Shown here: positions 2,505 to 18,641 of the stretch, piece by piece
Layout: each line of letters begins with the position of its first letter
How positions within the stretch are numbered: position 1 is the first letter of the stretch
Source: Nitrospira sp.
GTDB taxonomy: Bacteria; Nitrospirota; Nitrospiria; Nitrospirales; Nitrospiraceae
Assembly: GCA_024998625.1 (NCBI GenBank)
Contig: JACOEL010000001.1
Span: 248,001 to 312,000, forward strand
Length of the DNA: 64,000 nt
Reading direction: 5' to 3'
Notes under the pieces: generated by a model
The model's input: only the letters and a program-made list of their open reading frames with translations
What the model was told of the DNA's origin: nothing
The model's database searches: none
Translations under genes and position numbers: made by a program

Positions 2505-3218
2505 CTAGGCGGACTCGAAGGTATGTTTACGATGCACGAAGGATTCAAGCGCGTTCCGCACCGATCCTCCCCAGCCCCGGTACTCGATCGTTTCTTTGCC
2601 GTCGAACCGGAACTCTAGACCAAGATGCGTTCCATCGGTCTGCGGTGACAGGTTTCGGACGACCCCTGTCAGATTGTTGACGTGTCCGGTGCCGGTGATT
2701 TCAAACTCAACCCGCAAAGCCATCCCCGGGTAAAAGTCCTGCACGGGGCGTTGAATGAGCACGGCGCAGCCGGAGGCACTCAAATCCTTCAGGAGCCCAC
2801 CGATGCGGATCGGGGGTTCATTGGGCAGGTTGGATGCGAACTCCTGCACGACGGACAAGACAATCGGCTCCTGGGCCGATACCCGCCCGTGCTTCCGGAG
2901 CGGCACCTCCTCCAACTCGGAGGGAAATGCGAGCAGCAGAAACGGGAAAGGCTGCATCTGCGTTTCCAGCACCTCCGTGCGGTATCCGATCATGTGTCCT
3001 TCATAGATGTACCGCAGCAGGCAGAGGGTGCCTTTCATACAGGGAATCGGCTGCCCCAAATGAAACGGCCATTCACAGACGATCCAGCTCCGGCGTTTCC
3101 ACCCCAGGACCGATGAGCCGTAGTGCCCCCGCGTGTCGTCCTGCGGCAGGCTGAGCTGAAGCGAGAGACCGACCGACAGAAATGAGGACGGATGACGATG
3201 GATGACCGGTTCGCTCAT
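2505..3218 (-). CDS. YcgR-like PilZ-domain c-di-GMP receptor
   Basis: A 237-residue protein with an N-terminal YcgR-like beta domain (about residues 10-110) and a C-terminal PilZ domain. The c-di-GMP signature is intact: RKHGR (RxxxR) at the domain junction and DLSASG (DxSxxG) about 40 residues on. YcgR proteins bind c-di-GMP and act on the flagellar motor as a brake; that role is inferred from the family and from the position next to the flagellar block. The start at 3218 is preceded by GGAGGGAG. It is divergent from the HD-GYP gene, and a sigma-28-like promoter is visible upstream. No transmembrane segment. Confidence 0.85.
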   Translation of the reverse strand: MSEPVIHRHPSSFLSVGLSLQLSLPQDDTRGHYGSSVLGWKRRSWIVCEWPFHLGQPIPCMKGTLCLLRYIYEGHMIGYRTEVLETQMQPFPFLLLAFPSELEEVPLRKHGRVSAQEPIVLSVVQEFASNLPNEPPIRIGGLLKDLSASGCAVLIQRPVQDFYPGMALRVEFEITGTGHVNNLTGVVRNLSPQTDGTHLGLEFRFDGKETIEYRGWGGSVRNALESFVHRKHTFESA

Positions 3219-3268
3219 ATGCTTTCTCCCTCCGCGCCTGCAAGCGCGTAGACGCACCCTCGTCAGCT

Positions 3269-3296
3269 CTATCGGTCGTCCTCTGCAAGACCTGAA
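3269..3296 (-). promoter_or_regulatory. Possible sigma-28 (FliA) promoter for the PilZ gene
   Basis: On the minus strand TTCAGGTC (-35), 12 nt, ACCGATAG (-10). The -10 box agrees with the sigma-28 consensus GCCGATAA at 6 of 8 positions, the -35 box (TAAAGTTC) at 5 of 8. Spacing equals that of the better sites upstream of flgM and csrA in this window. It would start transcription near 3262, about 44 nt before the PilZ start. Confidence 0.45.
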
Positions 3297-3326
3297 GGAA
3301 CCGGTGAGTCTGCGTGGTCGCACAGG

Positions 3327-3354
3327 TAAAGACCGGCTTCGGATCAACCGATAT
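3327..3354 (+). promoter_or_regulatory. Sigma-28 (FliA) promoter for the HD-GYP/hybrid kinase operon
   Basis: TAAAGACC (-35), 12 nt, ACCGATAT (-10) on the plus strand. Both boxes match the sigma-28 pattern, and the spacing is the same as at flgM and csrA. Transcription would begin near 3361, leaving a leader of about 70 nt before the HD-GYP start at 3433. Confidence 0.55.
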
Positions 3355-3432
3355 GAACTCTACAGCATAGATGGAACACCGGAAGAACTCCGCTCAATTC
3401 AATCCGTCCTGAGCAGTAGGTATAGCTCTGAT

Positions 3433-4686
3433 ATGGCTTCGACAAAGCGCATCTCCATCGATCAGCTTACCGTCGGCATGTTCATCGCCGGTTTGGATCA
3501 GCCTTGGTATCGCACTCCGTTTCTCCTCCATAAGTGGCTGGTTTCAAATCCTGACGACATTGTGCAACTCAAACGCCATGGCATCCTCGTCGTCACCATC
3601 GATACCGAACGCGGACTGGACGTCGGGGCCGCCATCCCGCCTGCGCCGGCCACCGTACCTCCTCCGGATGAACCGCCGCCTGTCGGCGTTGAAGCCGTCG
3701 TGCCCCAGCTTAGCGAACAGATTCCACAGGCCGCAGTGGCTGCTGCGGCCTATCGGGAAGCCTCGGCCGCCGTGGAACGCGTCTTCAGTGACCTCGAAGC
3801 GGGTAACCCGCCAAAGATTGCGGTCCTGAAACCGATCGTGAGCAGGCTCCTGGAGCAGATCGTGGCACAGCCGGAAGCGATGCTGATCCAGTTCTGCCTG
3901 GATAAAGTCCGACGTTTTGACGCCACCCTGGCCAGCCATGGCATGGATGTCTGCGTGCTCACCCTCATCCTTGCAGTGGAAAACGGCTGCGTGGAAGCCG
4001 ATCTGGAAGCGCTTGGGTTGGGGGCGCTGCTCCATGACATCGGTTATGTGCGACTCCCGCGCAACCTGTATCGGAAAACCACCCCGTTGACCGATCAAGA
4101 GCAGGTCCTCATGAAGCAGCACCCGCAATTGGCAGCCACCGTACTGGCTCAAGTGGGGTCGGTTCCCGATGCGGTTTCCCGTATTATCCTGGAACATCAT
4201 GAATATCATGACGGGAGCGGGTTTCCTCAACATCTGAAGCAGGAAGGTCTCGCCGCGCTGTCCCAACTGGTGGGGTTGGCTGACACCTACGACGATCTAG
4301 TCAGCGCGCGATATGGCCGTCCTCCCCTGCTGCCTCACGATGCGATTCGGCAACTCTTCGTGCTGGGAGCGAAAGGCCGGTACGAGAAGACGCTGGTGGA
4401 GGTCGCCATCAAGGCGTTAGGAGTCTACCCTCTCGGAAGCCTCATCAAGCTCAATACCAATGAATGTGCCTTGGTCGTCGGTCTGAATCACGAAGACCGG
4501 TTGCGACCGCGTATTCAGATCATCAAGGGTGCCGACGGGGAGCCCCAGAAACAACCGATCGAGGTCGACCTTCAAAACCAACCGCCCGACCAACCGACCC
4601 GCTCCATACTTCGGGCATTGGATCCAAAGCAGGAACAGGTCGATCTTCCCCAATACCTTGAACTTGCCGCAGGTGCTCGCTCGTGA
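3433..4686 (+). CDS. HD-GYP-domain protein with N-terminal DUF3391-like region
   Basis: A 417-residue soluble protein. The N-terminal part (ISIDQLTVGMFIAGLDQPW) resembles the DUF3391 region common in HD-GYP c-di-GMP phosphodiesterases. The HD-GYP domain follows from about residue 180: HD at 201-202, KQHPQ, the HHEYHDGSGFP segment and ADTYDDL. The metal-ligand histidines and aspartates are therefore present, but two hallmark positions differ: the lysine of HDIGK is tyrosine (HDIGY) and GYP is GFP. Activity may be changed or lost. The start at 3433 was chosen because the family sequence begins there; the reading frame is open further upstream but includes the promoter. Its stop overlaps the GTG start of the hybrid kinase by 4 nt (GTGA), implying translational coupling. 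Confidence 0.85.
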   Translation: MASTKRISIDQLTVGMFIAGLDQPWYRTPFLLHKWLVSNPDDIVQLKRHGILVVTIDTERGLDVGAAIPPAPATVPPPDEPPPVGVEAVVPQLSEQIPQAAVAAAAYREASAAVERVFSDLEAGNPPKIAVLKPIVSRLLEQIVAQPEAMLIQFCLDKVRRFDATLASHGMDVCVLTLILAVENGCVEADLEALGLGALLHDIGYVRLPRNLYRKTTPLTDQEQVLMKQHPQLAATVLAQVGSVPDAVSRIILEHHEYHDGSGFPQHLKQEGLAALSQLVGLADTYDDLVSARYGRPPLLPHDAIRQLFVLGAKGRYEKTLVEVAIKALGVYPLGSLIKLNTNECALVVGLNHEDRLRPRIQIIKGADGEPQKQPIEVDLQNQPPDQPTRSILRALDPKQEQVDLPQYLELAAGARS

Positions 4687-7535
4687 CGAACCATCCTCAG
4701 CATCCACGCGCCCAGCCGTCCCAACACGTCGCAGGCATTGCCGTACCTTCAGAGGTCTTAACCTTGCTGTGGGATGCTGTGCCGCTCGGCATCTGCCTTC
4801 TGGCGGCCGAGCAAACAATTATTTTTGCAAATCGAACCGCCGCTCGTCTTTTCGGGCGATCCCCGGCGGCCTGTACGGGACAAGCGTTATCGGACCTCAT
4901 CGGTCAGCGCCTTGATCTGAGCGACTCGCTTCGGGCCACCGGAATTGTGAAACTGCCGGACGGGCCGCTTCCTCCCACCGACCCAGCGACGAGTGGTGAT
5001 GAGAGCAGCACCGGCAATTCCACGGTGATCGAATGGCAACACCTTCGCATCTCCGGGATTCCCTCTGTCGCTACGTTGATGATCCTGCGCGATGTGTCAC
5101 GCGAAATCGAATTGGAGAAAGACCGTGACCGTCTGGCCGAAGTGGCCGAGGAAAGTCCCTATCCGATCGTGGAAATCGACCGGCACGGAAATCTGGTTTA
5201 TGCGAATCCGGCCATGGCAGACGTCCTCGGTCGCTTCGGATACGACCTTGCAGGCAAGCCGGACATCCTTCCGGAGAACCTCCCCGCTCTTGTCGCGACC
5301 TGTTTACTGGAAGGACGGACCTTCACGTCCCAGGAAGTCGTGCGAGGCGACGCCTGTTATAGCTGGACGCTCTGCCCGGTACCCGGGCACGGCCTTGTGC
5401 GGGCCTTTGCCATCGATCTGAGCGAAGTGCATGCGACTCACCGGGCGCTCAACGAGACCGCCGATCGCCTCCGCGAGAGCAACCGCCAGTTGGACCAGGC
5501 ACTCCAGCAGGCCCAGACGGCGGCACGGGCGAAGTCGTCGTTTCTGGCCATGATCACGCACGAATTGCGCACACCGATGAACGGCGTGATCGGGATGGCC
5601 AGCTTGTTGCTAGAGACACCGTTGACCGAAGAGCAACGGTCCTTCACGAATACCATTCAGCAGTGCGGAGAAGCGCAACTTTCACTGATCAACGATGTGC
5701 TCGAATGCAGCAAGATCGAGGCGGGCAAGTTGGAATTGGAACACCTCGATTTTCATCTGCGTACGACCGTTGAAGACGTGTTGTCACAGTTCGCGGAACG
5801 GGCTCAGCGTAAAGGTCTGGAGATTACGGGCCTGGTCCATGCCGCCGTGCCGAACGCGTTGCGCGGCGACCCCGGACGGCTGCGCCAGGTGTTGACCAAT
5901 TTCGTAGGCAACGCCATCAAGTTCACCGAACGCGGGGAAGTCACCTTGCAGGCCTTTCTGGAGCGCGACTCCCCTTCCGAGGTCATCATCAAGTTCGAGG
6001 TGACGGACTCCGGCATCGGCATCAGCGAAGACGTGCAGTCGCGGCTGTTCCAGGCCTTCACTCAAGCCGATAGCTCCACCACCAGGAAATACGGAGGGAC
6101 GGGACTCGGTCTCGCCATCTCCAAACAATTGGTGGAACTCATGGGCGGCCAAGTCGGACTGCGCAGCCAACCGGGCCAGGGCACCACGTTCTGGTGCACG
6201 GCGAGATTTCAGAAGCAGGCGGTCTGTGCCCCGGCCATCGTTCCCTCGGTCGAGTTGAGCGGTCGCCGTATTCTGATCGTCGACGATAATGAGTCCAATC
6301 GCACGATTCTTCATCATCTGGTATCAGGCTGGGGCATGCAGGACGGCCAGGCGCGTCATGCCGATGAAGCCATTCACATGCTGGAGCAGGCCGCCGCACA
6401 AGGCCGGCCCTACGACGCGGCGGTGCTCGATATGCTGATGCCGGGGAAAGATGGACTCCAACTGGCCCAGGAGATCAGGGCCCACCCTCAAGGAGCCGGG
6501 GTTCGCTTGATCGTCTTGACCTCCTTGATTCAGCCTGGTCATGCCGAACGGGCGCGTCGCGCAGGCTTTACGGCCTACCTGACGAAGCCCGTACGCCATG
6601 ATCAGCTCCAAGGTTGTCTCCGCGTCGTGTTTGGGCTGCAGGGATCGGCCACAGCCGCCGTTCCAGGGGTAGAGACGGGTCCGACGATTGTCCCGACATT
6701 GATCACCCGCCACACCTTGGCCGAACAGCGTACCCGCCCTCGTATCCTCGTTGCAGAAGACAATGTGGTGAACCAGAAGCTGGCCGTACGTATGCTGGAC
6801 CGCCTCGGGTATCAGCCGGACATCGTATCCAACGGCCAGGAAGCCGTGGCGGCATTTGAACGGGGTCTCTATGCCGCGATCGTCATGGACTGCCAGATGC
6901 CGACGATGGATGGATATGAGGCGACCCGCCGCATTCGCGAGCAGGAACAAAAGCCTGCCGCATCCGGCACCCGCGCCCATGTCCCCATCATTGCGCTGAC
7001 GGCGAACGCCATGCCGGGAGACCGCGAGCGCTGCAAAGCCGTCGGTATGGATGACTATCTCTCCAAACCGGTGAAGACCGACGATCTCGGTAGAATCTTG
7101 CAGCGGTGGGCTCCCCTCGCGACACCGGACCATGCGTCGGTGCCGACGCCCCCCCGTGAAATGACGAAGACCGATGCCCGCGTGTTCGACGCGAGCACGA
7201 TGCTGGTCAATATCGGCGGCGATGTGGATCTGTTCGATCAATTGATCCGTCTATTCTTGGAGCGCCACCGCATGATGGTCCAGGAGATCGCAGCGGCCAT
7301 CACGCAGGCTGACGGCGTCGCTCTTGAACGGGCGGCTCATAGCCTCAAAGGCACGGCAGGTAATTTGTGCGCACCGGAAGTGGTGCTCCTGGCAAGTCAG
7401 TTGGAGGCCAACGGACGTCTCGGGACGCTCGCCGAAGCCCCTGCCCTATTCGCCCAGCTCGAACGTACGGTTCAGCAACTCGTCGCCGTGCTGGAGCGTC
7501 AGATCACACCAGCCGACCCGTCTCAGTCGCATTAA
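4683..7535 (+). CDS. Hybrid sensor histidine kinase: PAS-PAS-HisKA-HATPase-REC-REC-Hpt
   Basis: A 950-residue cytoplasmic hybrid kinase with no membrane segment. Two PAS-like regions lie at about residues 15-125 and 145-250. The HisKA H-box ITHELRTPMNG carries the phospho-accepting H293, followed by an ATPase domain with the N box and GTGLGLAISKQL. The first receiver has acceptor D583 (VLDMLMPG), the second has D736 (VMDCQMPTMDG), and the C-terminal Hpt domain has AHSLKG with H886. All phosphorelay residues are intact, as in BarA-type kinases. It begins with GTG overlapping the HD-GYP stop by 4 nt, so both are made together. The output protein is not in the window; coupling to the HD-GYP protein suggests that the relay and c-di-GMP-type signalling work together (inference). 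Confidence 0.9.
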   Translation: MTNHPQHPRAQPSQHVAGIAVPSEVLTLLWDAVPLGICLLAAEQTIIFANRTAARLFGRSPAACTGQALSDLIGQRLDLSDSLRATGIVKLPDGPLPPTDPATSGDESSTGNSTVIEWQHLRISGIPSVATLMILRDVSREIELEKDRDRLAEVAEESPYPIVEIDRHGNLVYANPAMADVLGRFGYDLAGKPDILPENLPALVATCLLEGRTFTSQEVVRGDACYSWTLCPVPGHGLVRAFAIDLSEVHATHRALNETADRLRESNRQLDQALQQAQTAARAKSSFLAMITHELRTPMNGVIGMASLLLETPLTEEQRSFTNTIQQCGEAQLSLINDVLECSKIEAGKLELEHLDFHLRTTVEDVLSQFAERAQRKGLEITGLVHAAVPNALRGDPGRLRQVLTNFVGNAIKFTERGEVTLQAFLERDSPSEVIIKFEVTDSGIGISEDVQSRLFQAFTQADSSTTRKYGGTGLGLAISKQLVELMGGQVGLRSQPGQGTTFWCTARFQKQAVCAPAIVPSVELSGRRILIVDDNESNRTILHHLVSGWGMQDGQARHADEAIHMLEQAAAQGRPYDAAVLDMLMPGKDGLQLAQEIRAHPQGAGVRLIVLTSLIQPGHAERARRAGFTAYLTKPVRHDQLQGCLRVVFGLQGSATAAVPGVETGPTIVPTLITRHTLAEQRTRPRILVAEDNVVNQKLAVRMLDRLGYQPDIVSNGQEAVAAFERGLYAAIVMDCQMPTMDGYEATRRIREQEQKPAASGTRAHVPIIALTANAMPGDRERCKAVGMDDYLSKPVKTDDLGRILQRWAPLATPDHASVPTPPREMTKTDARVFDASTMLVNIGGDVDLFDQLIRLFLERHRMMVQEIAAAITQADGVALERAAHSLKGTAGNLCAPEVVLLASQLEANGRLGTLAEAPALFAQLERTVQQLVAVLERQITPADPSQSH

Positions 7536-8462: not shown

Positions 8463-8490
8463 ATATCGGTTTTGATAAAGGTGAACTTGA
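8463..8490 (-). promoter_or_regulatory. Sigma-28 (FliA) promoter for csrA-fliW
   Basis: Minus strand: TCAAGTTC (-35), 12 nt, ACCGATAT (-10), in the gap between flgL and csrA. The -35 box differs from the flgM promoter box (TAAAGTTC) at one base. Transcription would begin near 8455, about 30 nt before the CsrA start. Confidence 0.6.
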
Positions 8491-11351: not shown

Positions 11352-11657
11352 TTACAGGACCGCGTCGGTCAAGACGTTACGAATGATGGCATCCGCAACC
11401 TTCTTACCGTCCACGTTGTACGTGCCCCCTTCGACCGACTGACGAATTTGACCGACTCTGGCATCACGCTCCGCATCCGGCTGTTCCGCTGCCGCCCTCA
11501 GACGCTGGAGTTCTTTGGCCTGTTCGGAAATCTGGACACGATCCTGAGACTGCGTCCCTTGAGACGCGGTCTTCTTGTTGTGTGTCCGTTCAGTGTCCTG
11601 AACTCCCAACAGAATTTTCGCGAGATCTGCCGCCCGGCCATTATGTGAGATCTCCAT
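11352..11657 (-). CDS. flgM: Anti-sigma-28 factor FlgM
   Basis: A 101-residue FlgM. The C-terminal half, with DARVGQIRQSVEGGTYNVDGKKVADAII, carries the conserved sigma-28-binding pattern (RxxxIxxGxYxVDxxxVAxxI). FlgM holds FliA inactive until it is exported through the finished hook-basal body. The N-terminal half is polar and likely disordered, as needed for export. A GGGGGAGGAG ribosome site precedes the start. A sigma-28 promoter lies upstream, so FlgM feeds back on its own regulon. FliA itself is encoded at 17880-18641. Confidence 0.92.
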   Translation of the reverse strand: MEISHNGRAADLAKILLGVQDTERTHNKKTASQGTQSQDRVQISEQAKELQRLRAAAEQPDAERDARVGQIRQSVEGGTYNVDGKKVADAIIRNVLTDAVL

Positions 11658-11718: not shown

Positions 11719-11746
11719 CTATCGGCGGGACCAGCCGGGAACTTTA
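11719..11746 (-). promoter_or_regulatory. Sigma-28 (FliA) promoter for flgM-flgN-flgK-flgL
   Basis: Minus strand: TAAAGTTC (-35), 12 nt, GCCGATAG (-10), each differing from the classical TAAAGTTT / GCCGATAA at a single base. It lies between the flgJ-like stop and flgM; transcription would begin near 11711, about 54 nt before the FlgM start. This is the best sigma-28 site in the window. Confidence 0.8.
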
Positions 11747-16844: not shown

Positions 16845-17720
16845 TCAGGCAGCGATCGTGGAAGTGGGATCAACTGAGGTGGAGGCCATCGCACCGGGGA
16901 GTCCATTGAGGGCGTAGCCTTCGGTACGAGCCCTTGCCATGGCCCGGGTGGCCGCATCGAGGAGTCCGTCACTCTCCACAGTGTCGTGACTGGAGAGACC
17001 GATTCCAATCCGGCTGGTCAGGAACAACTCGTGCCCGTCCAGGGTGACCGGCAGCGATATCGTGCTTTGCATCTTTCTGGCGATGGCCAGTACCTCCTCC
17101 GAACCGGTGACCTGATCCAGCAGGACGACAAAGGTGCGCTCAGCAAGTCTCGCCACCGTGTCGGTGGTGCGCAGGGCGCTCTTCACACGCGCAGCGAGAA
17201 CGCGATACATGAGGTTGAGGTTGATTTGCGCCTGTTCATCCGTCTTTGGGGTGAAGTGATCCAGCTCGATCATGAGGACCGCTACCGGCCGGCCATGCTT
17301 GTCGGCATGCGCCTGGGCTTGCTTGAGGAGAGACGTAAAAAGACGATAGGTCGGCAACCCAGTGACCGAGTCGTAGGTGTGCATGCCAGACCCGTTCGAT
17401 TCTTCCGACAGTGCATGCATCCTGGAAGCCGATTGCGGGCCACGCGGAGTCCAGAACGTTGCGCCGAAAACCAGCAGCGTGAGAAGAATGCCGGCAGAGA
17501 TCATGACGGGATAGGCCATCAAGGCCGACAGAGTCAGCAGGCCCACGGAGGCAGTCCAATACAATCCGCCGGCCATGAACAGGATACAGGCCGCTACGCC
17601 GAGCCGGGCGCTCTGAAGCGATTGGGTACCCGCTTCATCGTCGGGCCACCCATGCTGGTTCGTTGAGTCCGATCCGTTACGGTCGTTCGACGTGTTGAGT
17701 TCCGGACGTGATGAATGCAT
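16845..17720 (-). CDS. Membrane protein with degenerate GGDEF domain
   Basis: A 291-residue protein: polar N-terminus, two membrane helices (about residues 40-95, with a short connection), then a GGDEF-like domain starting at DSVTGLPTYRLF. The catalytic motif is lost: the expected RLGGDEFVVLL reads RLAERTFVVLL, so residues 193-197 are AERTF. It cannot be a normal diguanylate cyclase; it may bind nucleotide, dimerise or serve as a receptor. The start at 17720 has GGGGAGGG upstream. It lies between flgF and fliA, and has its own sigma-28-like promoter, which argues that it serves the late flagellar programme. Confidence 0.8.
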   Translation of the reverse strand: MHSSRPELNTSNDRNGSDSTNQHGWPDDEAGTQSLQSARLGVAACILFMAGGLYWTASVGLLTLSALMAYPVMISAGILLTLLVFGATFWTPRGPQSASRMHALSEESNGSGMHTYDSVTGLPTYRLFTSLLKQAQAHADKHGRPVAVLMIELDHFTPKTDEQAQINLNLMYRVLAARVKSALRTTDTVARLAERTFVVLLDQVTGSEEVLAIARKMQSTISLPVTLDGHELFLTSRIGIGLSSHDTVESDGLLDAATRAMARARTEGYALNGLPGAMASTSVDPTSTIAA

Positions 17721-17768
17721 ACCCTCCCCGATGGGGCAGCGCAGCCAACGGGATGTTGGACTAGGGAG

Positions 17769-17796
17769 GTATCGGAAGAGTGGAGACGAAACTAAA
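17769..17796 (-). promoter_or_regulatory. Possible sigma-28 (FliA) promoter for the GGDEF-like gene
   Basis: Minus strand: TTTAGTTT (-35), 12 nt, TCCGATAC (-10), with the same spacing as the flgM and csrA sites. Expected start near 17761, 41 nt before the coding start at 17720. The site lies between fliA and the GGDEF-like gene. Confidence 0.45.
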
Positions 17797-17879: not shown

Positions 17880-18641
17880 TCACACATCCACCGGTTCGAG
17901 CCGCGCTTTCAAGTGGAGGATGGCTTTCGAATGGATCTGGCATACGCGCGATTCGGTCACTTTGAGCGCCTGCCCGATCTCCTTCATCGTGAGTTCCTCG
18001 AAATAGTAGAGCGACAATACCAACCGTTCCTTCTCCGGCAGATCCTGGATCGCCGCTTCGAGCACGTGGCGCGCCCGTTCGTTCACCAGGACCGAGAGAG
18101 GATCCGGCTGATTGGAGTCGGTCAACACACTGATGATCTTATGCCCGTCCGCATCCTGCACGCCGAGATCGTCCAGGCTGATCACCACGGCGCCGCGTGA
18201 GCGAGTCAGGAATTCATCCAGTTCCTCCGCGGACATCTTCAATTCTTTGCCGACTTCCTGGTCTGTCGGCGGGCGCCCGAGTCTGTGCAGCAGCTCGGAA
18301 TAGGTTTTTTGAAGGAGCGTAATCCGCTCGTGGACCGAGCGCGGGATCCAATCCATCGACCGGATTTCATCGAGCATCGCGCCACGGATACGGAACTCCG
18401 CGTAGGTTTTGAACTTGGCTTCGCGAGTCGGATCGTACTTGTCCATCGCATCCATGAGGCCCATAATCCCGACGGATATGAGGTCCTCCGCATCCATATA
18501 CGCCGGCAGGCGGAACGCCAGACGATGGGCCATGGCCTTCACGACGTGGGTGAATTCCTGAATCACCCGTTCACGATCTGCCTCCGCAATCACCCGGCGC
18601 GGGGCGTTCCTGACCGCAGACATTTTTCGAGCGTCCATCAT
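17880..18641 (-). CDS. fliA: Flagellar sigma factor FliA (sigma-28)
   Basis: A 253-residue sigma-28. Region 2 reads MDAEDLISVGIMGLMDAMDKYDP and TYAEFRIRGAMLDEIRSMDW with PRSV following, all FliA hallmarks; region 4 has LSLYYFEELTMKEIGQALKVTESRVCQ as the helix-turn-helix. It directs late flagellar genes and is restrained by FlgM (11352-11657). It is the last of a run flhA-flhF-flhG-fliA on this strand, 18 nt after flhG. Several matching promoters are visible in the window. Confidence 0.97.
   Translation of the reverse strand: MMDARKMSAVRNAPRRVIAEADRERVIQEFTHVVKAMAHRLAFRLPAYMDAEDLISVGIMGLMDAMDKYDPTREAKFKTYAEFRIRGAMLDEIRSMDWIPRSVHERITLLQKTYSELLHRLGRPPTDQEVGKELKMSAEELDEFLTRSRGAVVISLDDLGVQDADGHKIISVLTDSNQPDPLSVLVNERARHVLEAAIQDLPEKERLVLSLYYFEELTMKEIGQALKVTESRVCQIHSKAILHLKARLEPVDV

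Follow-up and report, generated by a model that had tools for sequence, protein, structure and literature searches.

Sequence evidence for a divergent sigma-28 promoter pair between a flagellar brake gene and an HD-GYP/hybrid-kinase operon in Nitrospira

Background

Two genes that start back to back in a Nitrospira genome of 4.42 Mb raise the question of whether a flagellar brake and its putative signalling partners are made together with the late flagellar genes. The window, meaning the whole stretch of DNA analysed here, comprises 64,000 nucleotides (contig C9:248001-312000), and positions without a contig name refer to it unless a locus is given. The intergenic gap occupies 3219-3432, exactly 214 nt, with an ATG at 3218 on the minus strand on one side and an ATG at 3433 on the plus strand on the other. 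Leftward lies a gene for a YcgR-like flagellar brake protein (2505..3218, minus). Rightward lie a gene for a DUF3391 and HD-GYP protein (3433..4686, plus), which carries HDIGY where HDIGK is expected, and a hybrid histidine kinase gene (4683..7535, plus) with PAS, HisKA, HATPase, two receiver domains and Hpt, the start of which overlaps the stop of the HD-GYP gene. The closest named matches of the HD-GYP protein are from Candidatus Nitrospira defluvii (92%) and Nitrospira MAGs (74-85%). Further matches include one Nitrospiraceae MAG (87%), one record under the title 'uncultured Nitrosospira' (76%) and, weakly, four records of Lachnospiraceae.

The sigma factor of such promoters and its antagonist are both encoded in the window: fliA, for sigma-28, at 17880..18641 (minus) and flgM, for the anti-sigma-28 factor, at 11352..11657 (minus). 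FliW and CsrA are encoded in the window as well.

Results

The sequence-only reading had proposed that sigma-28-like sites face both ways in this gap with the spacing seen at flgM, and the sites and their spacing are indeed found. The plus site, before the HD-GYP/kinase operon, lies at 3327-3354 and reads TAAAGACC-N12-ACCGATAT, with the -35 element TAAAG at 3327-3331 and the -10 element CCGATA at 3348-3353. The minus site, before ycgR, lies at 3269-3296 and reads TTCAGGTC-N12-ACCGATAG, with the -35 element TTCAG at 3292-3296 and the -10 element CCGATA at 3270-3275. The reference site of this type, the flgM promoter (core 11720-11746, minus), reads TAAAGTTC-N12-GCCGATAG, and the 12-nt spacing is common to all three, giving the core form T..AG-N16-CCGATA. 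Measured by a TAAA-like -35, a -10 of CCGATA and a fixed spacing, the plus site agrees throughout and its TAAAG-N16-CCGATA matches the promoters of flgM and the che operon. The minus site is weaker, with two mismatches to TAAAG in its -35. The E. coli FliA consensus, taken literally with its 11-nt spacing, is not matched anywhere in the genome, and the form with 12-nt spacing, not the 11-nt form of E. coli, is the right one in this Nitrospira. Sigma-70 promoters were set aside as an alternative, a search of 3100-3500 having found no sigma-70-like match, although promoters of other kinds may also serve the two genes.

The same motif recurs at other late genes. Matches on the contig with one mismatch and the same spacing include those before flagellin, csrA-fliW and a STAS/MCP pair. 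Together with flgM and che, these are typical late genes of the sigma-28 regulon. Both boxes at this spacing precede fliC, flgM, csrA and che genes in up to 15 genomes, and in the same genomes the regions upstream of flgL, flgK, flgJ and fliA gave best matches with 2-5 mismatches only. The link to the late flagellar regulon that had been claimed from the sequence is thus supported by a motif that is shared with these genes and conserved in relatives. The site before csrA-fliW (8464-8490, minus) has 0-2 mismatches in 14 of the 14 genomes with csrA in the stretch, and csrA-fliW seems, from its motif, to belong to the late regulon. A further site, TTTAG-N16-CCGATA at 17770-17796 (minus), precedes a GGDEF-fold gene just downstream of fliA (16845-17723, minus). 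Its promoter is of the same weak type in 13/13 genomes, and in 13/13 sequences the GGDEF motif is replaced at the place of the active site (AERTF in the window).

TAAAG-N16-CCGATA is matched exactly three times in 4.42 Mb. Two of these matches are the plus site and the flgM promoter. The third lies ahead of a gene cluster that opens with a small HTH gene and continues with cheR, a gene for a CheY-like receiver and two genes that were read by eye from the sequence as cheZ and cheA. Since the reversed pattern, used as a control, gives five matches in the same genome, the genome count alone is not decisive, and position and conservation are. In dinucleotide shuffles of 25 intergenic regions of the genus (locus L038, at a contig end, left out), plus sites averaged 0.02 and minus sites 0.017 per set, and the strict pattern was observed in the real regions 25 times for the plus site and 18 times for the minus site, which was missed in seven. 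Among 15 regions of other genera (L159-L163 of 20 left out because the gap is not simple), the strict pattern gave 15 plus and 14 minus sites; the -35 pattern T[ATC][AC]AG had been widened after the minus site and other late promoters had been seen.

A weight matrix was trained on the flgM, csrA, che, fliC and STAS sites of up to 15 genomes, with the two test promoters excluded and training limited to sites that differed from an initial pattern in no more than one position. In a scan of 2 x 460,721 positions (the 461-kb contig), the plus site ranked sixth, below four of the training sites and one site that precedes a DUF420 gene. The minus site ranked eighth, below those five, the plus site and the training site of STAS. 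With one training family left out at a time, the sites of the omitted families ranked 4th, 5th, 6th, 10th and 113th, so that the two test sites rank in a similar range to accepted late promoters. The rank of 113 belongs to the STAS/MCP site, which indicates that the sensitivity of the motif model is limited.

Three side observations may be added. The strong site before the DUF420 gene (G000:C9:207420-207446, minus; rank 5) lies upstream of C9:206879-207340, a gene with no obvious flagellar role. CCGATA occurs at 45 places in the window, compared with 20.7 expected from dinucleotide shuffles, and none of 100 shuffles reached 45. This excess is not explained by promoters alone. Finally, of four further HD-GYP-like genes in this genome, one (L171) has a strict-pattern site in its flank, upstream at 2818-2844 (minus) of that locus, the gene lying at G000:C32:230160-231347.

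Of 29 genomes of the genus, 26 have the HD-GYP gene, 24 have ycgR and 27 have FliA. T[AT]AAG-N16-CCGATA was found at every one of the 26 HD-GYP loci, and in the 15 genomes measured the plus site ends 71-80 nt before the HD-GYP start. The minus site is present in 25 of the 26 loci, at a spacing of 15-16 nt, under a loose pattern (-35 of T[ACT][ACT][AT][GT], 15-17 nt allowed) and counting L038, which a contig end cuts before ycgR. With the spacing fixed at 16, three of 14 ycgR regions show 2-3 mismatches. The sole locus without the minus site is that of a one-contig genome (G004, L047), in which FliA and the HD-GYP gene are present and no ycgR match was found at E 1e-20. In the genus alignment, column conservation is 0.97 for the minus -10, 0.92 for the minus -35, 0.97 for the plus -35 and 1.00 for the plus -10, against a mean of 0.59 for the rest of the same intergenic alignment.

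Beyond the genus, 112 of 147 genomes of the family match the HD-GYP protein at E 1e-40. When only clear orthologues count (best E up to 1.6e-85), FliA and the HD-GYP gene occur together in 96 genomes, whereas three have the HD-GYP gene only, ten FliA only and 38 neither, and as the 147 genomes share ancestry, a Fisher value on this co-occurrence is not a true probability. Strict divergent pairs were found at 27 of 30 loci from other genera of the family, comprising 17 of 20 hand-chosen from the family match list and ten of ten further loci. The exceptions are L155, with the plus site present and a minus site with one -10 mismatch, and L161 and L162, both of genus g19, which have neither site although the genus has FliA as well as the HD-GYP gene. 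At three loci from a different family of the order (L190-L192), neither a site nor a ycgR match was found.

Directly after the HD-GYP gene, a relative of the hybrid kinase is encoded in 20/20 (L162 in part) and 10/10 of the two sets of other-genera loci. A second HD-GYP gene, termed HD2 here, lies on the ycgR side in 13 of the first 20 and in one of the ten (L189). In all 13, ycgR lies beyond it, so that HD2 sits between ycgR and the divergent region (L150-L157, L159, L160, L162, L163 and L168). The ycgR gene adjoins directly in L149, L158, L164-L167 and nine of the ten loci of the second set, and no ycgR match was found in the stretch read at L161. HD2 is not at the locus in the genus of the window nor in part of genus g6. 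Since g6 occurs with and without it, HD2 probably came or went more than once, as judged from this distribution. A motif search of the four other HD-GYP-like genes of the Nitrospira genome did not find the HDIGK form of this second HD-GYP of the sister genera in any of them; three have HDIGL, HDIGI and HDVGK, and L171 has no HD.G.

The sequence-only reading had also described the two divergent products as a brake-type receptor and a possible c-di-GMP hydrolase. The receptor part stands as a prediction, since the YcgR protein has the PilZNR and PilZ layout and keeps the c-di-GMP-binding motifs: RxxxR and DxSxxG in the window, and RxxxR with [DN]xSxxG in all 43 sequences examined. The hydrolase part is weakened. 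Aligned with PmGH (4mcw), to which its HD-GYP domain has a sequence match, the window protein has seven of the eight metal ligands (equivalents of H189, H221, D222, H250, H276, H277 and D305, 7/7) and the equivalent of D183. It differs in having Thr for E185, GFP for GYP and, at the lysine of HDxGK (K225 in PmGH), a Tyr, giving HDIGY for HDIGK. In PmGH, the K225A and D183A mutations are reported to abolish activity and E185A to lower it, mutants of the GYP motif being still active, and E185 is described as variable among HD-GYP groups (PMC4159591). Among the orthologues in the family, the K225 position is Tyr or Phe in 54 of 56 (26/26 in the genus, 18/20 and 10/10 in the other genera) and Glu in two. 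The neighbouring HD2 proteins have Lys there in 14/14.

Discussion

The gap is best explained as a divergent pair of FliA (sigma-28) promoters serving ycgR and the HD-GYP/hybrid-kinase operon, a reading given a probability of about 0.88. The predicted placement of both in the sigma-28 regulon is strongly supported by the shared motif and its conservation, and the brake and its signalling partners are probably produced along with the filament of the flagellum.

Several observations speak against this reading: the two g19 loci and the three loci of the other family that have no sites, the ten genomes with FliA and without this HD-GYP gene, and the -35 of ycgR (TTCAG or TTTAG), which departs from that of flagellin and flgM. 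Possibly, the plus site alone functions as a sigma-28 promoter, with the minus site bound by another factor or ycgR transcribed mainly from a different promoter. The two mismatches to TAAAG and the lower strict count in the genus (18/25 versus 25/25) fit this alternative. The conservation of the minus -10 and the spacing in 25/26 genus loci speaks against it, as do the good -35 elements of other genera (TCAAG or TTAAG), the TCAAG of G003 within the genus and the lack of a minus site in the genome without ycgR, and we consider it unlikely. Still less probable, to the point of being hardly credible, is that both sites are accidental or owe their conservation to something other than sigma-28, for instance a regulator binding two boxes. 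Given the over-representation of CCGATA in the window, single boxes do mean little, but the same two boxes at the same spacing stand before fliC, flgM, csrA and che, and shuffled regions almost never yield both. With about 0.02 sites per shuffled set and boxes common to the late genes, chance and a stand-alone regulator were set aside.

A different alternative accepts the regulon and concerns the protein: the HD-GYP protein may be an ordinary phosphodiesterase that lowers the c-di-GMP level in the manner of E. coli PdeH and tolerates Tyr or Phe in place of the lysine. The retained metal ligands and D183 equivalent would fit such an enzyme, as would the conservation of Y/F rather than decay and the variability of E185 among HD-GYP groups (PMC4159591). 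The inactivity of PmGH K225A (PMC4159591) argues against it, and the neighbouring HD2 of the sister genera keeps the lysine throughout, as if roles were split. This alternative is accordingly a possibility of some weight, albeit a doubtful one. Since Tyr/Phe replaces the lysine across the family and the metal site is intact, the substitution appears old and kept, and it points to an altered function and not to decay. The label 'c-di-GMP hydrolase' is therefore doubtful on present sequence comparisons, and a sensor, or an impaired or altered enzyme, is more likely than an ordinary phosphodiesterase.

For the divergent FliA pair, we infer the dependence on FliA, the positions of the starts, the release through export of FlgM and the braking output as follows. 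FlgM would hold FliA back until, with the hook complete, FlgM itself is exported, as has been described for Salmonella and other bacteria (PMC13432727). FliA freed from FlgM would then direct RNA polymerase to a leftward start about 45 nt ahead of ycgR and a rightward start about 70 nt ahead of the HD-GYP/hybrid-kinase operon, at the same time as flagellin, flgM, csrA-fliW and the chemotaxis genes would be transcribed. YcgR bound to c-di-GMP would act as a brake on the motor, which is how c-di-GMP acts through YcgR in enteric bacteria (PMC13432727), and the HD-GYP/kinase pair would probably read or modulate the c-di-GMP signal.

More tentatively, the locus may represent a sigma-28-timed c-di-GMP module across the Nitrospiraceae. 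It would consist of an intact YcgR, a sensor-type HD-GYP protein without the lysine and a relaying hybrid kinase, made with the filament, a canonical HD2 being repeatedly present or absent and the protein without a GGDEF motif next to fliA having the same weak promoter type. If this is true, the flagellar regulon adds c-di-GMP sensing and not simply removal. In practical terms, a sigma-28 motif for Nitrospira can be defined from sequence alone, at about T[ATC][AC]AG-N16-CCGATA.

In E. coli, pdeH and ycgR are separate loci, and the counterpart of the HD-GYP protein is an EAL enzyme. For the one gene paired with ycgR in Nitrospira, DUF3391 and HD-GYP were found instead of an E. coli-type EAL domain. 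In E. coli, pdeH (yhjH) is reported as a FliA-dependent class 3 gene and YcgR as FliA-controlled (PMC8669469), so that there, too, FliA controls a YcgR brake and a protein of c-di-GMP turnover along with the late flagellar genes (PMC8669469, PMC5300878). Nitrospira differs in having an HD-GYP protein without the key lysine and a hybrid kinase, divergent from ycgR across one short promoter region. In Pseudomonas, the YcgR homologue FlgZ is reported to be transcribed with flgMN and to depend on FliA and FleQ (PMC3913639), and bifA is reported as partly FliA-controlled (PMC5300878). The likeness again lies in a YcgR homologue and a c-di-GMP gene under FliA, whereas a divergent pair with an HD-GYP gene is not described in the available text of these two sources (PMC3913639, PMC5300878). 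In the open literature, covered by title and the start of the abstract and with most subscription papers outside it, no study of sigma-28 control of c-di-GMP genes in Nitrospira was found.

As the FliA dependence of pdeH, YcgR and FlgZ has been reported, the wiring principle is already known, and the divergent arrangement, the HD-GYP class and the missing lysine are a variant of it. The present reading would link braking of the motor to assembly of the flagellum in one group of nitrifying bacteria, and it points out an apparently non-standard HD-GYP protein with its own kinase. The enterobacterial wiring of FliA, YcgR and a turnover protein would thus have a counterpart in Nitrospira that is built from a different protein class.
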